Assembly (NCBI GenBank): GCA_002070205.1
Contig: MWCU01000035.1
Location: 124,001-188,000 of the forward strand
Length of the DNA: 64,000 nt
Origin: Firmicutes bacterium ADurb.Bin182
GTDB taxonomy: Bacteria > Bacillota > Clostridia > Christensenellales > CAG-138
Direction of reading: 5' to 3'
Within the stretch, counting starts at the first letter, position 1. Each line of letters opens with the position of its first letter. Positions 3,768 through 20,099 of the stretch are shown in pieces. Position numbers and translations under genes: made by a program. The notes beneath the pieces are model-generated. The model saw nothing but the letters and a program-made list of their open reading frames with translations, did no database searches and was not told where the DNA came from.

Positions 3768-3838
3768 AAGTCCGATGAATAAAGAATGTTTCTCCTTTGC
3801 GCAAATATATATATTATAAGCGCGAAGGAGGTTTTCTT

Positions 3839-5005
3839 ATGAAGTATGCTTTGTCCGGCATGATGCGTTTTACGGCTGCCGCATTATGCCTGTTTTGCAC
3901 ACTTTCGGTTTTTTGTTCGGCAAAGGCCGCAAAAACGGATGTTATAATAACAAATTCTGCGAAAGCTTATCTTTTGGCCGATGCTCCGTCGATGCAGCCA
4001 ATAGTTGAGTTTAATTCACAAGAGCCTGTCGACGCGGCAGGTCTGTCGAGATTGCCGGCTTTGCTCATCATATGTGAATCCGTCGACAAGGGTGAGATAC
4101 TGCCTGACTCAATGATAAGGGTGAGCGATAACGCGGCTTCGATAAAGGGACCGACAGCCTTTTTGGAGGCGAATGAAAACATAAGCGTTCAGCAGCTGTT
4201 GAAAAGCGCGGTCATGATATCGGCGGGGGATTCGACTTATGCGCTTGCGCAGCATCTGAGCGGTACCGAGCAGGCGTTTGTGCAAAAAATGAACGCGCGG
4301 CTTTCGGAACTCGGCATTAACAAAGAATACTCCAGAATCATCGATTCGAATATCAAGCTCAGCGCAAACGATTTGGCGGTAATAGGAAAAGAATTGATGA
4401 AGTCGCCTTCATTCACAATGTACAGCAATGTCTATATGGATGATTTGACCCACGAGGACGCCCGGTATACGGAGCTTGTGAATCCCAACAAAATGATCAA
4501 TACCTATGCGGGCTGCTTTGGCCTTTCTACCGGCTCGTCGTCCGGAGCGGGATATTGCGGAGTATTTTGCGCAAAACGCGGTGAAAGCGTGATGCTTTGC
4601 GTAGTAGCCGGAGCTAATAACTCAAAGGAGCGCTTTGCAATTGCATCCGAATTGCTTGATTACGGATTTGCGAATTACAAATCGGAGGTTCTTTTAAATG
4701 AAGGCGATGTTGCCGTTGAGAATATCGAAGTGAAGGGAGGAACGCAGAGATACATCAACCTTGTTGCCAAAAAGGACGCTGCGCTTCTTCTGAACAAAAA
4801 CGAAAATGCGCCGGAAGCAAAAATCAATGTGCCCGAATATTTAACGGCGCCGATACGGGCGGGAGAAACGCTCGGAACCCTTGATTATTTTGACGCAAAC
4901 GGAAATACCGTCATGTCCGTAGAACTTGTGTCCCAAGTCTCGGTGGAGCAGGCAGGCATTGCGGATTACTTTATGATGGTATTGATGAACTGGGTCAGGA
5001 TGTAA
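3839..5005 (+). CDS. DacF-like D-alanyl-D-alanine carboxypeptidase homologue lacking catalytic motifs
   Basis: Exported protein of the DacF/PBP5 fold, 388 aa, with a signal peptide (hydrophobic 10-27) and a C-terminal beta domain. ATG 3839 is chosen because GAAGGAGG ends 7 nt upstream; the longer TTG frame from 3797 has no ribosome site. By position after deoB it corresponds to dacF. All three penicillin-binding motifs are altered: where SxxK is expected there is S70-R-L-P73 with no lysine nearby, SxN reads S128-A-G130, and K-T-G reads S230-T-G232. Fold-level features (MNARLSELGI, GESVMLCVVAG) remain, so the protein is probably folded but not a peptidase. The frame is intact, which argues against a simple pseudogene. 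Its role is unknown: perhaps a muropeptide-binding or scaffold protein. Confidence 0.85.
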   Translation: MKYALSGMMRFTAAALCLFCTLSVFCSAKAAKTDVIITNSAKAYLLADAPSMQPIVEFNSQEPVDAAGLSRLPALLIICESVDKGEILPDSMIRVSDNAASIKGPTAFLEANENISVQQLLKSAVMISAGDSTYALAQHLSGTEQAFVQKMNARLSELGINKEYSRIIDSNIKLSANDLAVIGKELMKSPSFTMYSNVYMDDLTHEDARYTELVNPNKMINTYAGCFGLSTGSSSGAGYCGVFCAKRGESVMLCVVAGANNSKERFAIASELLDYGFANYKSEVLLNEGDVAVENIEVKGGTQRYINLVAKKDAALLLNKNENAPEAKINVPEYLTAPIRAGETLGTLDYFDANGNTVMSVELVSQVSVEQAGIADYFMMVLMNWVRM

Positions 5006-8258: not shown

Positions 8259-9383
8259 ATGAAAAAAGTCAATTTATTATTGACATTCGCGCTGTTTATT
8301 TTAATGGCCGGCAACGTCGCAAATACGGCTTTTGCTTATACCGAACCGGAAATATCGGCCGGCGGCGCAGTTCTGATGGAAGTGGAAACCACAAAGGTGT
8401 TGTATGCACTCTCACCTCATGAAAGGCTGCCGATGGCAAGCACGACAAAAATAATGACCGCTCTGGTCGCGATTGAGAATTCAGAACCTGATGATATGGT
8501 AGAGGTGCCGGATATCGCTTTCGGCGCGGAAGGGTCAAGCATGTACCTCAAAAGGGGCGAAATGCTCTCAATGGAAGACCTGTTGTACGGGCTGATGCTT
8601 ACTTCGGGCAATGATGCGGCAATTGCCATAGCCGTTCATGTGGGCGGCTCCGTGGAAGGGTTCGCAAAAATGATGAATGCGCGCGCCAAGAGCATCGGAG
8701 CATTCAATACGAACTTCGTAAATCCGAACGGCTTGCCTGACTCAAAACATTATACTACGGCCTATGACCTGACGCTTATTGCTGCCGAAGCGCTCAAGAA
8801 TCCGGAATTCGCAAAAATAACGGGCACAAAAACATATAAAACAAAGACGGGCGATTATATTCGTTGGCTCAAGAACAAAAATAAAATATTGAGTCAATAT
8901 GACGGAGGAACGGGAGTTAAAACCGGCTATACCAAACAAGCCGGCAAATGCCTGGTTTTCTCCGCGCAAAAAGGCAATATGCATCTTGTCGGGACTGTTC
9001 TCGATTGCGGCGAAATGTTCCCGAGCGCAATGGACCTGCTGGATTTCGGTTTTAACAACTTCAGCCCTTATACCGTAATGAGCAAAGGAGACGATTCGCT
9101 AAATATAAATGTCAGGAACGGGCTGAAAAATAAATTGGCATTGACAGTCAAGCAGGATATAATTGTTCCGGCGGAAAACGGGACTGTACCGGATATAGAC
9201 ATACATATAAAAGTGAATAAAACGGTTGATGCTCCCGTACGCAAGTATGACAGGATGGGCGCGCTTGAGATTTATGATAACGGGAGACTTTTATTGACGG
9301 TCCCTCTTTACGCTGCGGATGATGTTCTTCAGAGAGATTATATATACTACCTGAAGCGCTTGTTGAATTTTTGGGCTGCATAG
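8259..9383 (+). CDS. dacF: D-alanyl-D-alanine carboxypeptidase, catalytically intact
   Basis: Low-molecular-weight penicillin-binding protein that removes the terminal D-Ala of peptidoglycan stem peptides outside the membrane. 374 aa with a signal peptide (about 1-26, ending TAFA). All three active-site motifs are present: S61-T-T-K64, S116-G-N118 and K221-T-G223. A C-terminal beta domain and an amphipathic tail (about 355-374, YYLKRLLNFWAA) that probably anchors to the membrane follow. It lies in a tight run ytfJ-dacF-rluB. It contrasts with the motif-less paralogue at 3839 and is presumably the working copy. No strong Shine-Dalgarno precedes its ATG. Confidence 0.94.
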   Translation: MKKVNLLLTFALFILMAGNVANTAFAYTEPEISAGGAVLMEVETTKVLYALSPHERLPMASTTKIMTALVAIENSEPDDMVEVPDIAFGAEGSSMYLKRGEMLSMEDLLYGLMLTSGNDAAIAIAVHVGGSVEGFAKMMNARAKSIGAFNTNFVNPNGLPDSKHYTTAYDLTLIAAEALKNPEFAKITGTKTYKTKTGDYIRWLKNKNKILSQYDGGTGVKTGYTKQAGKCLVFSAQKGNMHLVGTVLDCGEMFPSAMDLLDFGFNNFSPYTVMSKGDDSLNINVRNGLKNKLALTVKQDIIVPAENGTVPDIDIHIKVNKTVDAPVRKYDRMGALEIYDNGRLLLTVPLYAADDVLQRDYIYYLKRLLNFWAA

Positions 9384-10197: not shown

Positions 10198-10333
10198 AAT
10201 TTATCCGTGAAAAAGAAGGAATAAAGGATTTTATGAAGAATAGTTGAATAAGGGATAGGATGAGTCAAATCGGAGTAATCTGGTTTTGATTCTTGACAGG
10301 TTGACCGTTATTTCGGAAGGGCAGGCGAACAGA

Positions 10334-10930
10334 ATGAATTGGCCGGAAGGCAGCTCAACAATTATTCCGGTCATTGCGGTAATCATTTTCGGCTTTGTTT
10401 ACCTTATGATCAGAGTAATAAAACAAAAAAAATCGAACGATGCAAACGCGGAAACGGACAGTATCGATTCTGTTTCCGGGTATGCGGATGATTGCAGCTC
10501 ATTAAGCGGCGAAAATGAACTTAAGGCAGCAATTTGCGCGGCTGTTGCGGCATATTCGGGGAATAGGATAAAGGGCTTGAGAATCTTATCGTTTAAGCCT
10601 GTTTTTTCGAAAGACGAAAGGCAGGAAATAATGGCTGCCGTATCCGCGGCTATCGCAGCTTATATCGGGACCGGCATTAATAGACTAAAAATTAATTCTT
10701 TCAGGGCCGTTCCCCGTCAGGACCTGCGCGGGCAGCGAATGGCGGCAATTTCTGCGGCGATATCGGCATATACGGGTACGCACGCGTCAAAACTGAGAAT
10801 TCTGTCCATTAAAGAGACGGCGTCTCAAACGGATGAGATTCAGTTCAAGGCGGCGGTTTCCGCTGCGATCGCGTCTTTTATCGGCGCAAATATTTACGGA
10901 TTAAAAATTCGTTCAATCAAAAAAATATAA
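10334..10930 (+). CDS. OadG-like membrane protein with four tandem 36-residue repeats
   Basis: Membrane-anchored protein related to the gamma subunit (OadG) of sodium-pumping decarboxylases, about 198 aa. One N-terminal transmembrane helix (about 9-30) precedes a polar linker. The normally single OadG C-terminal motif then occurs four times, starting at residues 62, 98, 134 and 170, an exact 36-residue period. Each copy has the form AAVSAAIAAYIG followed by LKI-x-SF/SI. ATG 10334 has an AGGGCAGG site 8 nt upstream; a longer TTG start at 10286 is possible. It lies 19 bp before a biotin carrier and upstream of the carboxyltransferase, so it probably organises that complex at the membrane. The repetition is odd for the family. 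Confidence 0.8.
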   Translation: MNWPEGSSTIIPVIAVIIFGFVYLMIRVIKQKKSNDANAETDSIDSVSGYADDCSSLSGENELKAAICAAVAAYSGNRIKGLRILSFKPVFSKDERQEIMAAVSAAIAAYIGTGINRLKINSFRAVPRQDLRGQRMAAISAAISAYTGTHASKLRILSIKETASQTDEIQFKAAVSAAIASFIGANIYGLKIRSIKKI

Positions 10931-10949: not shown

Positions 10950-11309
10950 ATGCGAAAGTTTAGAGTCAATGTCAACGGTACCTCTTATGAAATAGAAGTC
11001 GAGGAAGTTACCGGCTCTCTGCCGCAAGAGACCGCAGGAAAGGCCAGAGCCGAGGATCCCGCGCCTGCCGCAATCAGAAAAGCCGCATCGGCAAATCAGC
11101 AAAATGTTCTGGCTCCGATGCCGGGCTCTATTGTCGAAGTCAAAACAAAGGCCGGTTCGAGCATTAAAAAAGGCGAAGTGCTGCTGATACTGGAAGCTAT
11201 GAAAATGGAGAACGAAATCGTCGCTCCGAGGGATTGTTCCGTTGTATCCGTCAATGTGACAAAGGGCACGACGGTCAATGCCGGTGACGTTCTTTGCGTC
11301 ATTGAATAA
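10950..11309 (+). CDS. Biotin carboxyl carrier protein (decarboxylase-type)
   Basis: Biotin-carrying subunit of a biotin-dependent decarboxylase or transcarboxylase, 119 aa. The N-terminal part (MRKFRVNVNGTSYEIEVEEV) is the usual leader of OadA/GcdC-type carriers, followed by an Ala/Pro-rich flexible linker. The C-terminal biotinyl domain has the biotin-accepting lysine in EAMKMEN and the flanking APMPGSIVEV. GGAGGAAAAT precedes the ATG. It sits between the OadG-like and carboxyltransferase genes and would shuttle CO2 from the latter to a membrane partner. Confidence 0.93.
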   Translation: MRKFRVNVNGTSYEIEVEEVTGSLPQETAGKARAEDPAPAAIRKAASANQQNVLAPMPGSIVEVKTKAGSSIKKGEVLLILEAMKMENEIVAPRDCSVVSVNVTKGTTVNAGDVLCVIE

Positions 11310-11407: not shown

Positions 11408-12868
11408 ATGGCTGATAAATTATTGATTACCGATACGATACTCAGGGACGCTCATCAGTCGCATGCGGCGACCAGAATGCGAACGGAAGATATGCTGCCC
11501 GGGTGCGAAATTCTGGACAGCATAGGTTACTGGTCGCTGGAGATGTGGGGAGGCGCGACATTTGACAGCTGCCTGAGATTTCTCAATGAGGATCCCTGGG
11601 AAAGGCTGCGCGCGCTTAGAAAAGCTCTCCCGAATACGAAGCTACAGATGCTCTTCAGAGGGCAGAATATACTCGGCTACAAGCATTATGCTGATGACGT
11701 GGTCGAACAATTCTGCCGCAAGGCTATTGAAAACGGAATTGACGTCATTCGCATATTCGATGCTCTCAACGATACGAGAAATTTGGAGGCAGCCATCCGT
11801 TTTACAAAAAAATACGGAGGTATATGCGAACCGGCGATAAGTTATACGATAAGTCCCGTTCATAATGAGGATTATTTCGTAAAGCTTGCAAAAGAATTGG
11901 TCCAAATGGGAGCGGACGTCATATGCATCAAGGATATGGCAAATCTGTTGCTGCCTTATAGCGCTTATTCTCTTGTGAAGCGGCTGAAACAGGAGATCAA
12001 TGTGCCTATCCACCTTCATACTCACAATACGACCGGAACCGGCGATATGACGCTGCTTATGGCCGTTCAGGCGGGAGTGGATATAGTTGACTGTGCATTA
12101 TCGCCCATGGGAAACGGAACGTCCCAGCCTGCAACGGAGCCGCTTGTAGCGACTTTGAAAGGTACGGAGCGCGATACCGGATTTGATCTGTTAAAGTTGG
12201 CGGAGGCGGCAAAACATTTTCGAAATGTAGCGAACAAGCTTAAATCTGAAGGCAGCTTGGATCCTAAAGTGCTTTCCGTAGATACGAACACGCTTTTATA
12301 CCAGGTGCCGGGCGGTATGCTGTCCAATTTGATTTCCCAGCTGAAGCAGGCAAACGCAGAGGATAAATACTATGACGTTCTTGAGGAGATTCCGCGCGTT
12401 CGCAAGGATTTCGGCTATCCTCCGCTCGTAACGCCCACCAGTCAAATAGTGGGCACACAGGCAGTACTCAATGTGGTATCGGGACAGCGCTATAAAATGT
12501 TCACCAAAGAAAGCAAGGCGCTTTTGAGGGGCGAATACGGAAGGCTTCCCGGAGAAGTGAATGAAGAAGTAAGAAAAATGGCGATCGGCGAAGAGGATGT
12601 TATTACTTGCAGGCCGGCGGATCTGCTTGCCCCGGAACTTGATAATTATCGCAATGAAATCAAGGATATAATGAGGCAGGAGGAAGACGTATTGAGCTAT
12701 GCGCTTTTTCCTCAAGTAGCGCTGAAATTCTTTGAAAAGCGGAATGCTCCAAAGGCTGAAGTCCCGAAAATTGCGGACAGACCCGATCCCGAACCCGGGC
12801 TGAATGACCGGGATGCCTCGCCCTCAGAAGAGATAACTGTTCTTTATGTGGAAGATCTGACTGTTTGA
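11408..12868 (+). CDS. oadA: Oxaloacetate decarboxylase / pyruvate carboxylase-type carboxyltransferase (alpha subunit)
   Basis: Carboxyltransferase that moves CO2 between oxaloacetate (or a related acid) and biotin. 486 aa, without its own biotin domain, which is encoded separately upstream. TIM-barrel HMGL-like domain first: DTILRDAHQS (metal/substrate site), the diagnostic GYWSLEMWGGATFD, FRGQN, the carboxylated-lysine segment CIKDMANLL and metal ligands HLHTHNT. Then comes the conserved carboxylase domain (from about 300). It is probably a Na+-translocating or pyruvate-generating decarboxylase with the two genes upstream. The beta subunit OadB, the membrane ion pump, is not in the neighbourhood. 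Whether the substrate is oxaloacetate cannot be decided here. Confidence 0.9.
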   Translation: MADKLLITDTILRDAHQSHAATRMRTEDMLPGCEILDSIGYWSLEMWGGATFDSCLRFLNEDPWERLRALRKALPNTKLQMLFRGQNILGYKHYADDVVEQFCRKAIENGIDVIRIFDALNDTRNLEAAIRFTKKYGGICEPAISYTISPVHNEDYFVKLAKELVQMGADVICIKDMANLLLPYSAYSLVKRLKQEINVPIHLHTHNTTGTGDMTLLMAVQAGVDIVDCALSPMGNGTSQPATEPLVATLKGTERDTGFDLLKLAEAAKHFRNVANKLKSEGSLDPKVLSVDTNTLLYQVPGGMLSNLISQLKQANAEDKYYDVLEEIPRVRKDFGYPPLVTPTSQIVGTQAVLNVVSGQRYKMFTKESKALLRGEYGRLPGEVNEEVRKMAIGEEDVITCRPADLLAPELDNYRNEIKDIMRQEEDVLSYALFPQVALKFFEKRNAPKAEVPKIADRPDPEPGLNDRDASPSEEITVLYVEDLTV

Positions 12869-17208: not shown

Positions 17209-17808
17209 ATGTTATACTATCTTGTCAGATATCTGCTTGGCCCTTTGGTCCTTCTCTTCTTGCGGCCCGTGATTTACGGATTGGAAAATCTCAGGATTAA
17301 GGGGAAAGCGATAATAATATCAAATCATATCTCCATGTTTGATCCCGCATTGATAGCTTTTATCACACCGCGGCCTGTTCATTTCATGGCAAAAGCGGAA
17401 TTGTTCAAGTCCGCGCCGGGCAGGGTGCTTTTTAATGCTTTTTTGGCTTTTCCGGTTAACAGGAAGGAAGTCGATTTAAATTCTTTAAAAAGAGCGCTGA
17501 GGGTACTCGATAAAAATAAAATATTCGGAATTTTCCCCGAAGGAACGCGTTCCGTTACCAACGATATGGATATTTTGGAAAAGGGGGCGGCTTTTCTTGC
17601 CGTCAGATCAGGAGCACCCGTGATACCCATATATATTCACTATAGCAGCTATCGGACATTCAGGCCCAAGGTAATGATAGGCAAACCCATTAATATCAGT
17701 GACATCGTTGCGAATACCAACAAATCAACTCTTATCGATGTGGTCACATACGAGTTCGCGGACGCTATGAACGCCCTTAAAATTGAACTGGAGGCCGTAT
17801 GCAAATAA
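17209..17808 (+). CDS. plsC: 1-acyl-sn-glycerol-3-phosphate acyltransferase
   Basis: Acylates lysophosphatidic acid to phosphatidic acid at the membrane, 199 aa. An N-terminal hydrophobic helix (about 1-22) is followed by the acyltransferase motif NHISMFDP (HX4D) and the substrate-binding block FPEGTRS. GAAAGGATT precedes the ATG. The last 10 bp overlap ispH-S1. With plsY at 44955 this supplies one later step of phospholipid synthesis. Confidence 0.92.
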   Translation: MLYYLVRYLLGPLVLLFLRPVIYGLENLRIKGKAIIISNHISMFDPALIAFITPRPVHFMAKAELFKSAPGRVLFNAFLAFPVNRKEVDLNSLKRALRVLDKNKIFGIFPEGTRSVTNDMDILEKGAAFLAVRSGAPVIPIYIHYSSYRTFRPKVMIGKPINISDIVANTNKSTLIDVVTYEFADAMNALKIELEAVCK

Positions 17809-20099
17809 TCGTTGCAAAGCATTCCGGCTTCTGCTTCGGGGTGCAGCGAGCGCTCAACATGGTCGAGCAGAATCTTGCCGAAAGGGATAAGATATATACC
17901 TACGGCGAGCTTATCCATAATGAGGTCGTGATTGAGGAGCTTAAAAAAAAGGGAGTCGTCCCTATCGAAGATATTTGCATGCTTAATCAAAACGACCTTA
18001 TAATTATTCGTTCTCACGGAACCGGCCCCGGGACATACGAGCGATTGGAGAAGCTCGGGATCGCGTTTAAAGACGCGACTTGCCCGTATGTCAAGCGTAT
18101 CCAGAAAACAGTAAAAAAACACCATGATCTCGGGCATACGGTTATAATAGCCGGCAAAGCTGACCATCCCGAGGTATCGGGCATCAACGGGTGGTGCGAT
18201 AACGCCGGGATCGTTGTTTCGGACGAGAAGGATGTCGATTCTCTTCCTTACGGTATGACCGCATGCTTAACGGCGCAAACTACTCTCCAGGAGGAAGTAT
18301 ATGAAAAAATCATCCTGAGAATCCGCGAGCATTGTGACGGATTATATGTTTATAACACGATTTGCGACACTGCGAAGGCGAGACAGCATGAAACCGAAGA
18401 GCTGAGCAAAAAATGCGGCGTAATGGTCGTAATCGGAGGATTCAACAGTTCGAACACAAGAAAATTAGCCGATCTTTGCAGAAAATACTGCAAGCGTGTA
18501 TATCATATTCAAAATCCCAAAGAACTGCCACTTGAAATAATCAATGCAAATGATATAATAGGAATTGTTGCAGGCGCTTCGACGCCGGATTGGATGATTA
18601 GGGAGGTTATTGCAAGAATGAGTGAAGTGGAAAAGACGATGGCTGAAGATCCCAAAGTCGAAAGCTCAGAAGATGAAAGGGAAGCAACAGCTGCCGTCGA
18701 GGAACCCGATTTAAAGCAGTCCGTTGCGGAGGAGCTCGAAACGGGTACTACCGAAGCCAATGATAATCATGAGACCAGCTTTGAAGAAGCTGTCGAAAAA
18801 TCAATGGTACGAATCAAACACGGTCAGTTGATTACCGGTACTGTAGTACAAATTGCCGATGAAGAGGTCTGCGTAAATATCGGGTATAAATCCGATGGGT
18901 TTATCCCAAAGAACGAGTTCTCATCCGATCCGGATGTAAAGCCTTCCGAAGTCTTAAGCGTTGGGGACGAGATAGTGGTCGAAGTGCTCAAAGTAAAGGA
19001 TGAAGACGGCAACGTGCTTCTTTCACGCAAAAGCGTTGAGGGCAAGAAGCTGTGGGACGAGCTTATGCACGAGGCAAACCTTGAGGAAAAGGTTTTCGAG
19101 GGTATAGGCAAAGAGGTCGTAAAAGGCGGACTCATAGCGAGCATCAAAGGCGTAAGAGCATTTGTGCCCGCATCTCAGATTTCGATAAAATATGTAGAAA
19201 ATCTGGCCGATTACGTCGGACAGCCGTTAAAGCTCAGAATTATTGAAGTAGATAAATCCCGCAAGCGTATAGTTGCCTCGCAGAAAGCCGTACTGATGGC
19301 TGAAGCCGAGCAGGAAAAGAAAGAAAAATGGAGCCGGCTTGTCGTTGGATCAAAGGTAACGGGTGTGGTTCGAAGGCTTACCAGCTTCGGCGCGTTTGTC
19401 GATATCGGCGGGATAGACGGACTGATACACGTTACGGACATTGCATGGGGGCGCGTCAAACAGCCTTCGGATATTTTGAAGGTCAATCAGCAGATCGAGG
19501 TTCTCATACTTAACGTCGACGCAGAAAAAGAACGCATTTCGCTCGGTTATAAGCAGCTTCAGCCAAAGCCGTGGACAAAAGCCGAAGAAAATTATCCCGT
19601 GGGCTCGGTCGTTGAGGGCAAAGTAGTCCGGATCGTGCCGTTTGGGGCTTTCGTATCGCTCGAACCCACTATAGACGGCTTGATTCATATATCACAGGTG
19701 GCCGTAAGGCGTATAGCGAAGGTGGAAGACGAAATAAGCGTAGGCAATATCGTACGCTGCAAGGTTCTCGAAGTAAATCCTGAGGCTAAGCGGATAAGCT
19801 TAAGCCGTAAAGAGGTCATCTTGGACGAAAATCCCGAAATTGCCGAAGAGATTGCAAGGGAAAAACAGGAGCGCGAGCGGCTCAATGCCGAGCGTGCGGC
19901 GCAAAGGGCTGCCATAGCAGAACAGGCAAAACAGGCGGAACGGGAGCGCGCTAAGGCTTCCGCTTCGGGCAAGCACGAAAGGGTCGACCACGAACGTCGC
20001 CCGCGCCGCGAAAACGCAGATTATGATCTGCCGCCCGTACAGCAATCGACTACTTCGCTCGCCGATCTTTTTTCAAGCCTGACAAATAACGAAGAATAA
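17799..20099 (+). CDS. ispH: Bifunctional IspH (HMBPP reductase) - ribosomal protein S1
   Basis: Fusion of the last enzyme of the non-mevalonate isoprenoid pathway with an S1-like RNA-binding protein, 766 aa. IspH part, about 1-285: the [4Fe-4S]-ligand cysteines are in HSGFCFGVQRAL, DATCPYVK and NTICDTAKARQ. An acidic linker (about 290-335) follows. Then come four S1 domains (about 340-408, 422-492, 507-576 and 592-664), and an Arg/Glu-rich tail. Two S1 repeats carry the classic SFGAFVDIGGIDGLIH / PFGAFVSLEPTIDGLIH signature. The fusion is known from Clostridia and is not an annotation error: the frame is continuous. It overlaps plsC by 10 bp and ends at a strong terminator. Confidence 0.95.
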   Translation: MQIIVAKHSGFCFGVQRALNMVEQNLAERDKIYTYGELIHNEVVIEELKKKGVVPIEDICMLNQNDLIIIRSHGTGPGTYERLEKLGIAFKDATCPYVKRIQKTVKKHHDLGHTVIIAGKADHPEVSGINGWCDNAGIVVSDEKDVDSLPYGMTACLTAQTTLQEEVYEKIILRIREHCDGLYVYNTICDTAKARQHETEELSKKCGVMVVIGGFNSSNTRKLADLCRKYCKRVYHIQNPKELPLEIINANDIIGIVAGASTPDWMIREVIARMSEVEKTMAEDPKVESSEDEREATAAVEEPDLKQSVAEELETGTTEANDNHETSFEEAVEKSMVRIKHGQLITGTVVQIADEEVCVNIGYKSDGFIPKNEFSSDPDVKPSEVLSVGDEIVVEVLKVKDEDGNVLLSRKSVEGKKLWDELMHEANLEEKVFEGIGKEVVKGGLIASIKGVRAFVPASQISIKYVENLADYVGQPLKLRIIEVDKSRKRIVASQKAVLMAEAEQEKKEKWSRLVVGSKVTGVVRRLTSFGAFVDIGGIDGLIHVTDIAWGRVKQPSDILKVNQQIEVLILNVDAEKERISLGYKQLQPKPWTKAEENYPVGSVVEGKVVRIVPFGAFVSLEPTIDGLIHISQVAVRRIAKVEDEISVGNIVRCKVLEVNPEAKRISLSRKEVILDENPEIAEEIAREKQERERLNAERAAQRAAIAEQAKQAERERAKASASGKHERVDHERRPRRENADYDLPPVQQSTTSLADLFSSLTNNEE

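Follow-up and report, generated by a model that had tools for sequence, protein, structure and literature searches.

The locus described here lies in a window of 64,000 nucleotides, taken from a genome of 2.65 Mb in 127 contigs, and encodes an OadG-family protein, a biotin carrier subunit and the carboxyltransferase subunit OadA (Table 1). The OadG protein is the only one above cut-off in this genome, and OadA is both its only OadA and its only match to PF02436. The same order of OadG, carrier and OadA was found in all relatives examined, and usually OadB sits between carrier and OadA; oadB is absent from the operon in the window, an absence that had gone unseen in the original prediction. The carrier is one of two BCCP-like genes of the genome, the other lying among the acetyl-CoA carboxylase genes, and a third biotin/lipoyl match falls inside a 453-residue frame. 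The single biotin carboxylase gene adjoins the acetyl-CoA carboxylase genes, PF01039 included, and no dedicated biotin carboxylase partner, as would mark a two-subunit pyruvate carboxylase, was found in the source genome. A pyruvate-carboxylase role was therefore rejected. Elsewhere in the window are two D-alanyl-D-alanine carboxypeptidase genes (Peptidase_S11 with PBP5_C; 3797-5005 and 8259-9383) about 3 kb apart, and a long open reading frame (17799-20099) whose translation, read by eye, starts like IspH and ends like ribosomal protein S1 repeats.

Table 1. Features of the oadG operon and the stand-alone oadB gene of the same genome (G000). Positions are those of the window except for oadB, which lies outside it; OadB residues follow Salmonella numbering.
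Feature	Position	Strand	Basis or remark
OadG-family protein, 198 aa	10334..10930	+	ATG start; in-frame upstream TTG at 10286 possible
Single transmembrane helix, residues 10-36, without VFxGL	10361..10441	+	AlphaFold helix; motif survey
Repeat 1, residues 61-96, Ala-rich helix and LRILSF strand	10514..10621	+	Self-alignment, unit profile, AlphaFold
Repeat 2, residues 97-132	10622..10729	+	Self-alignment, unit profile, AlphaFold
Repeat 3, residues 133-168	10730..10837	+	Self-alignment, unit profile, AlphaFold
Repeat 4, residues 169-198, end of protein	10838..10927	+	Self-alignment, unit profile, AlphaFold
Biotin carrier subunit, 119 aa, EAMKM biotin site	10950..11309	+	Pfam Biotin_lipoyl 1.1e-18
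OadA carboxyltransferase subunit, 486 aa, without own biotin domain	11408..12868	+	NF008985 3.5e-222, PYC_OADA 5.5e-56
OadA C-terminal strand ITVLYVEDLTV, behind variable linker	12833..12865	+	Conservation
Stand-alone OadB, without Arg304 and Asn311	G000:C61:15435-16514 (L040:7415-8668)	minus	

The layout of the OadG protein is that of the gamma subunit of oxaloacetate decarboxylase (OAD) from Salmonella, Vibrio and Klebsiella, which has an N-terminal membrane helix, a flexible linker and a C-terminal helix-strand segment and is encoded, as in the window, in genetic linkage with OadA and a biotin carrier. The hydrophobic stretch is predicted as a helix with high confidence (pLDDT about 94 for residues 11-30 in the AlphaFold model) and is followed by a linker and four 36-residue units, each a copy of the C-terminal helix-strand segment. 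Both Pfam OAD_gamma (PF04277; 3.4e-9, 37.7 bits, curated cut-off 27) and NCBIfam oadG_fam (TIGR01195; 7.7e-10, 39.2 bits, curated cut-off 36.05) match above their cut-offs. These models contain a single unit each, and their matches span the membrane helix and repeat copy 1. They support the OadG identity independently of the 29-residue unit profile used below, and they agree with the original prediction of an OadG-like protein whose repeats resemble the OadG C-terminal segment. In contrast to the Salmonella, Vibrio and Klebsiella proteins, the window OadG has four C-terminal segments instead of one and lacks the motif VFxGL, its operon lacks oadB, and the carrier is a separate subunit.

A separate biotin carrier and an OadG-homologous scaffold are also found in the glutaconyl-CoA and methylmalonyl-CoA decarboxylases, in the form of the delta subunits GcdD and MmdD (PMC7274780, PMC7145394). 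These have one C-terminal segment only (GcdD is 10 kDa) and work with a PF01039-type carboxyltransferase, unlike the window protein. In Veillonella, a second small subunit, MmdE, resembles the C-terminus of MmdD, such that two segments are supplied by two genes.

The four repeats had been predicted to begin at codons 62, 98, 134 and 170 (positions 10517, 10625, 10733 and 10841) with a spacing of 108 bp, and this was confirmed. Self-alignment of the repeat region gave BLOSUM scores of 184, 131 and 62 at offsets of 36, 72 and 108 residues, and the best score at any offset among 2000 shuffles was 27, which excludes a chance origin. Each unit consists of an Ala-rich helix and an LRIxSI strand, and all four keep the helix pattern, a glycine and the LxIxS strand. 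Between pairs of copies, 13-17 of 30-36 residues are identical, as is 51-59% of the DNA; identity is 60-77% at second codon positions and only 23-43%, near random, at third positions, indicating that the repeats are old and have been kept by selection at the protein level. A 29-residue unit profile matched each copy separately (E-values from 1e-13 to 9e-13 per genome), although the four window copies are among its 22 seed units (the other 18 are from relatives) and these matches therefore demonstrate consistency and not independent discovery.

The source being a draft metagenome-type genome, an assembly or sequencing artefact might be suspected, and such an artefact was named in the original prediction among its possible refutations. 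The DNA of the four copies is too diverged for either an assembly artefact or a recent duplication, and separate assemblies of relatives hold two and three diverged copies. We therefore rejected an artefact, the probability of which we consider negligible. The four-copy OadG is real and had been correctly described.

To survey OadG homologs for repeat number, as had been suggested, we searched related genomes with the unit profile. Units were found in 95 of 103 genomes of the organism's own family, and the number per OadG was one in 67, two in 22, three in five and four in the window protein only, although extra units that have diverged could score below threshold and escape these counts. Thus, ordinary OadG does have one copy, as had been stated, two or three copies occur in 27 of the 95 OadG-bearing genomes, and four is the maximum seen. 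One copy was also usual at greater distances. In a sample from the order, all 17 genomes of other families with a unit have a single one, and among the 391 genomes sampled from the class, 150 had a match and only one outside the family (G716) had two units in one frame. In the few other multi-match genomes of the class the matches were at separate places, the second place of G593 not being among the matches listed. Fifty of the 398 genomes sampled from the phylum had a match, and none of these had a tandem array. Members of one family in the class survey (f58; e.g. G489:C13:531498) carry single units in open frames of about 250-310 residues, which is longer than usual.

The two- and three-copy proteins of Christensenellaceae-related relatives (e.g. 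Christensenella sp. UBA5394 and UBA7707) share both architecture and operon with the window protein but have fewer copies. Their units are 36-44 residues apart, and it is only in the window protein that the period is exactly 36 residues. Literature searches on OadG repeats and on mmdD and mmdE gave nothing about repeat number, and a related-locus search with the window OadG as query returned no locus. Among the sequences compared, copy number in this known protein family varies by degrees, and the window OadG stands at its upper end.

Copy number differs even within single genera, with both two and three units in g13 and in g21, but two units are kept in all 13 genomes of genus g23. In a tree of units, which is weak because it rests on 29 residues, most first and second copies of g23 fall into separate groups, as expected of old pairs that have long been retained. 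The copies within G026 and within G081 resemble each other, which suggests repeated expansions of the unit. The two units of G716 are nearly alike and suggest an independent duplication; the gene (L179, 490-918) belongs to a complete oadG-carrier-oadB-oadA operon. Identity between units is 45-52% in the window protein and 41-93% in the two- and three-copy relatives; the window repeats are the more diverged, and some of its units might be degenerate.

Such variation could reflect neutral length drift, with only one or two units docking and the extra copies being tolerated by-products of tandem duplication that merely lengthen the tether. It would fit this explanation that one family holds one to four copies, varying inside g13 and g21, with no visible change in the partner subunits to match, and that the helices of window units 1 and 3 carry substitutions (IC, T, S) unusual elsewhere. 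However, the conservation of helix pattern, glycine and LxIxS in all four window units despite saturated third codon positions indicates protein-level selection on each unit, and the constancy of two units in g23, with most first copies parted from second copies in the tree, also argues against drift. We consider neutral drift rather unlikely.

What the units might bind is suggested by published work on related enzymes. In OAD, the partner of the gamma tail on the alpha subunit is the association domain and not the catalytic carboxyltransferase domain (PMC7274780, PMC2881705), which corrects the original statement that the OadG tail contacts the carboxyltransferase. The ratio of gamma tail to alpha is about 1:2, with a PT-like domain proposed (PMC7274780; PMC2881705), and alpha is set free when the tail is deleted (PMC7274780). 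Two-subunit pyruvate carboxylase has a central Ala-rich helix enclosed by a pair of four-stranded sheets, which two partner subunits contribute (PMC5059739). This helix forms part of the BT-like domain (PDB 5ks8) and docks in the strands of the CT-BCCP linker of the partner, and although it belongs to the biotin carboxylase of a soluble enzyme, with one per chain, we regard this domain as the best structural precedent for the docking proposed here. In glutaconyl-CoA decarboxylase (Gcd), which also has a separate carrier, the GcdD tail and the GcdC N-terminus have been placed in the linker that runs from the head to the membrane (PMC7145394).

The carrier of the window aligns with residues 481-594 of OadA and 495-613 of two-subunit pyruvate carboxylase. 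Its residues 1-20 form a hairpin conserved in the family, MRKFxVNVNGxxYEVEVEE(I). In alignments this hairpin falls on the association region, both in fused OadA and in the beta subunit of pyruvate carboxylase. Both this hairpin and the LYVEDL tail of OadA are conserved although the linkers vary freely, and together they probably constitute a split alpha association domain. In that case each repeat would bring a carrier and a carboxyltransferase together. The original prediction of a scaffold recruiting several carboxyltransferase or biotin-carrier units would then stand as to the several units per anchor, but each unit would probably hold both partners and not one or the other.

Structure prediction had also been suggested as a check. 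For OadG alone, AlphaFold returned the membrane helix and a separate helix for each repeat, without any globular packing (pTM 0.31), as expected of beads awaiting partners. As a stand-in for the complex we modelled OadG, carrier and OadA of a relative (locus L178), in which the genes share a frame, as an artificial read-through fusion with stops read as Gly. The model of this fusion (mean pLDDT 54) yielded no usable interface. Strands formed both at the OadG strand and in the carrier hairpin, at a confidence too low for pairing to be assigned, and Foldseek recovered the carboxyltransferase only. Neither OadG nor the unit profile had a sequence match to any solved structure.

The repeats might instead associate with one another, in the same OadG chain or across chains, as a homotypic oligomer or solenoid, and the exact period of the window protein could be read in this way. 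The variable spacing in relatives does not fit a solenoid, however, the modelled helices are separate, and the commonest form of OadG, with its single copy, would be left without a partner. We therefore consider homotypic binding very improbable.

We propose that the window OadG crosses the membrane once and serves as an anchor, with four docking units in its cytoplasmic tail in place of the usual one. If the OAD gamma tail and the BT-like domain are taken as models, the helix of each unit would lie at the centre of a small barrel and its short strand at the edge. The N-terminal hairpin of the carrier and the LYVEDL strand of OadA would complete this barrel. One anchor could then hold up to four sets of carrier and OadA near the membrane, and a larger number if two were to bind per unit, the ratio reported for OAD. 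That several copies of the OadG tail on one anchor make a scaffold is the natural reading, as originally suggested, and the conservation of the unit over 95 genomes with one, two, three or four copies per protein also counts in its favour, as do the OadG family match, the gene order and the conserved carrier hairpin and OadA tail. Against it stand the low confidence of the fusion model, the divergence of the window units, the fact that no visible change in the partner subunits follows copy number, and the lack of a match between the unit and any solved structure. On balance, a multivalent docking scaffold for carrier and OadA appears to us the probable function. The sequences themselves show the repeats and how well they are conserved, the graded copy number, the gene order and the conserved elements of the partners; we infer the barrel, the use of all four units and the stoichiometry.

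The membrane partner of this proposed scaffold is less clear. No oadB lies between carrier and OadA in the window, in G100, G099, G026, G030, G027 and G094, or in other genomes of genera g5, g24 and g26. The only OadB of the window genome is encoded on another contig (Table 1), with a gene resembling undecaprenyl-phosphate translocase and a branched-chain amino acid ABC transporter as neighbours. Sequence comparison divides OadB into an operon subfamily and a stand-alone subfamily. Arg304 and Asn311 are invariant in the operon type; the stand-alone type carries Gly, Ser or Thr at position 304 and is variable at 311 but keeps the equivalents of Glu40, Asp203, Ser382, Arg389 and Asn412. The stand-alone paralog was present in all twelve genomes checked except G053 (fragment only), at 67-73% identity to that of the window genome. 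Canonical OadB was not found in the window genome, and for this reason we do not classify the module as a proven Na+ pump.

Six of the twelve genomes (G000, G100, G099, G026, G030 and G027; G099 and G026 are incomplete drafts) have only the stand-alone OadB, and all six have lost the strict VFxGL motif from the OadG membrane helix, with near misses in G030 (IFIGL) and G027 (VLAGL). The other six (G094, G028, G053, G003, G014 and G012) keep both canonical OadB and VFxGL. Among operons, VFxGL occurs in 55 of 57 with oadB versus 6 of 17 without (Fisher p = 2e-7, ignoring relatedness); the motif is a correlate found in the present analysis and not a published criterion of OadG membership. A link between copy number and loss of oadB was not supported, as operons without oadB have one, two, three and four copies.

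These losses raise the possibility that the module no longer serves a Na+ pump and is a membrane-tethered biotin transcarboxylase or has another decarboxylase partner. The lack of oadB in the operon, the lack of Arg304 and Asn311 in the genome's only OadB and the six-to-six distribution of VFxGL are all consistent with this. Against it, no other biotin-dependent acceptor was found, the PF01039 and biotin carboxylase genes being an acetyl-CoA carboxylase set, and no biotin carboxylase at all was found in two relatives without oadB (G027 and G101). Furthermore, the stand-alone OadB keeps Glu40, Asp203, Ser382 and Asn412, and R304A in Salmonella OadB is only moderately inhibitory (PMC7274780), so the stand-alone protein may still be functional. 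A missing oadB could also be an assembly gap in draft genomes, although the gene order is common to six. We thus regard a non-pump role as doubtful. Similarly tentative is the fuller picture of a multivalent membrane-tethered array of carrier and carboxyltransferase, parted from canonical OadB and using either the Arg304-less OadB or a different carboxyl acceptor. Since no OadB other than the stand-alone, Arg304-less protein is encoded in the genome, it is uncertain which membrane protein would act as the decarboxylating partner. Independently of the repeats, the apparent loss of the canonical beta subunit makes the usual sodium-pump label uncertain for the window module.

The composition of decarboxylase sodium pumps is itself unsettled, with 1:1:1, beta3gamma3 with up to six alpha, and 4:2:2 all having been proposed. 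The series of OadG proteins that nature provides, with one to four putative docking units, could be used directly to test what a single unit binds and what sets this composition, and the parallel loss of canonical OadB and VFxGL points to the part of OadG that may dock on OadB.
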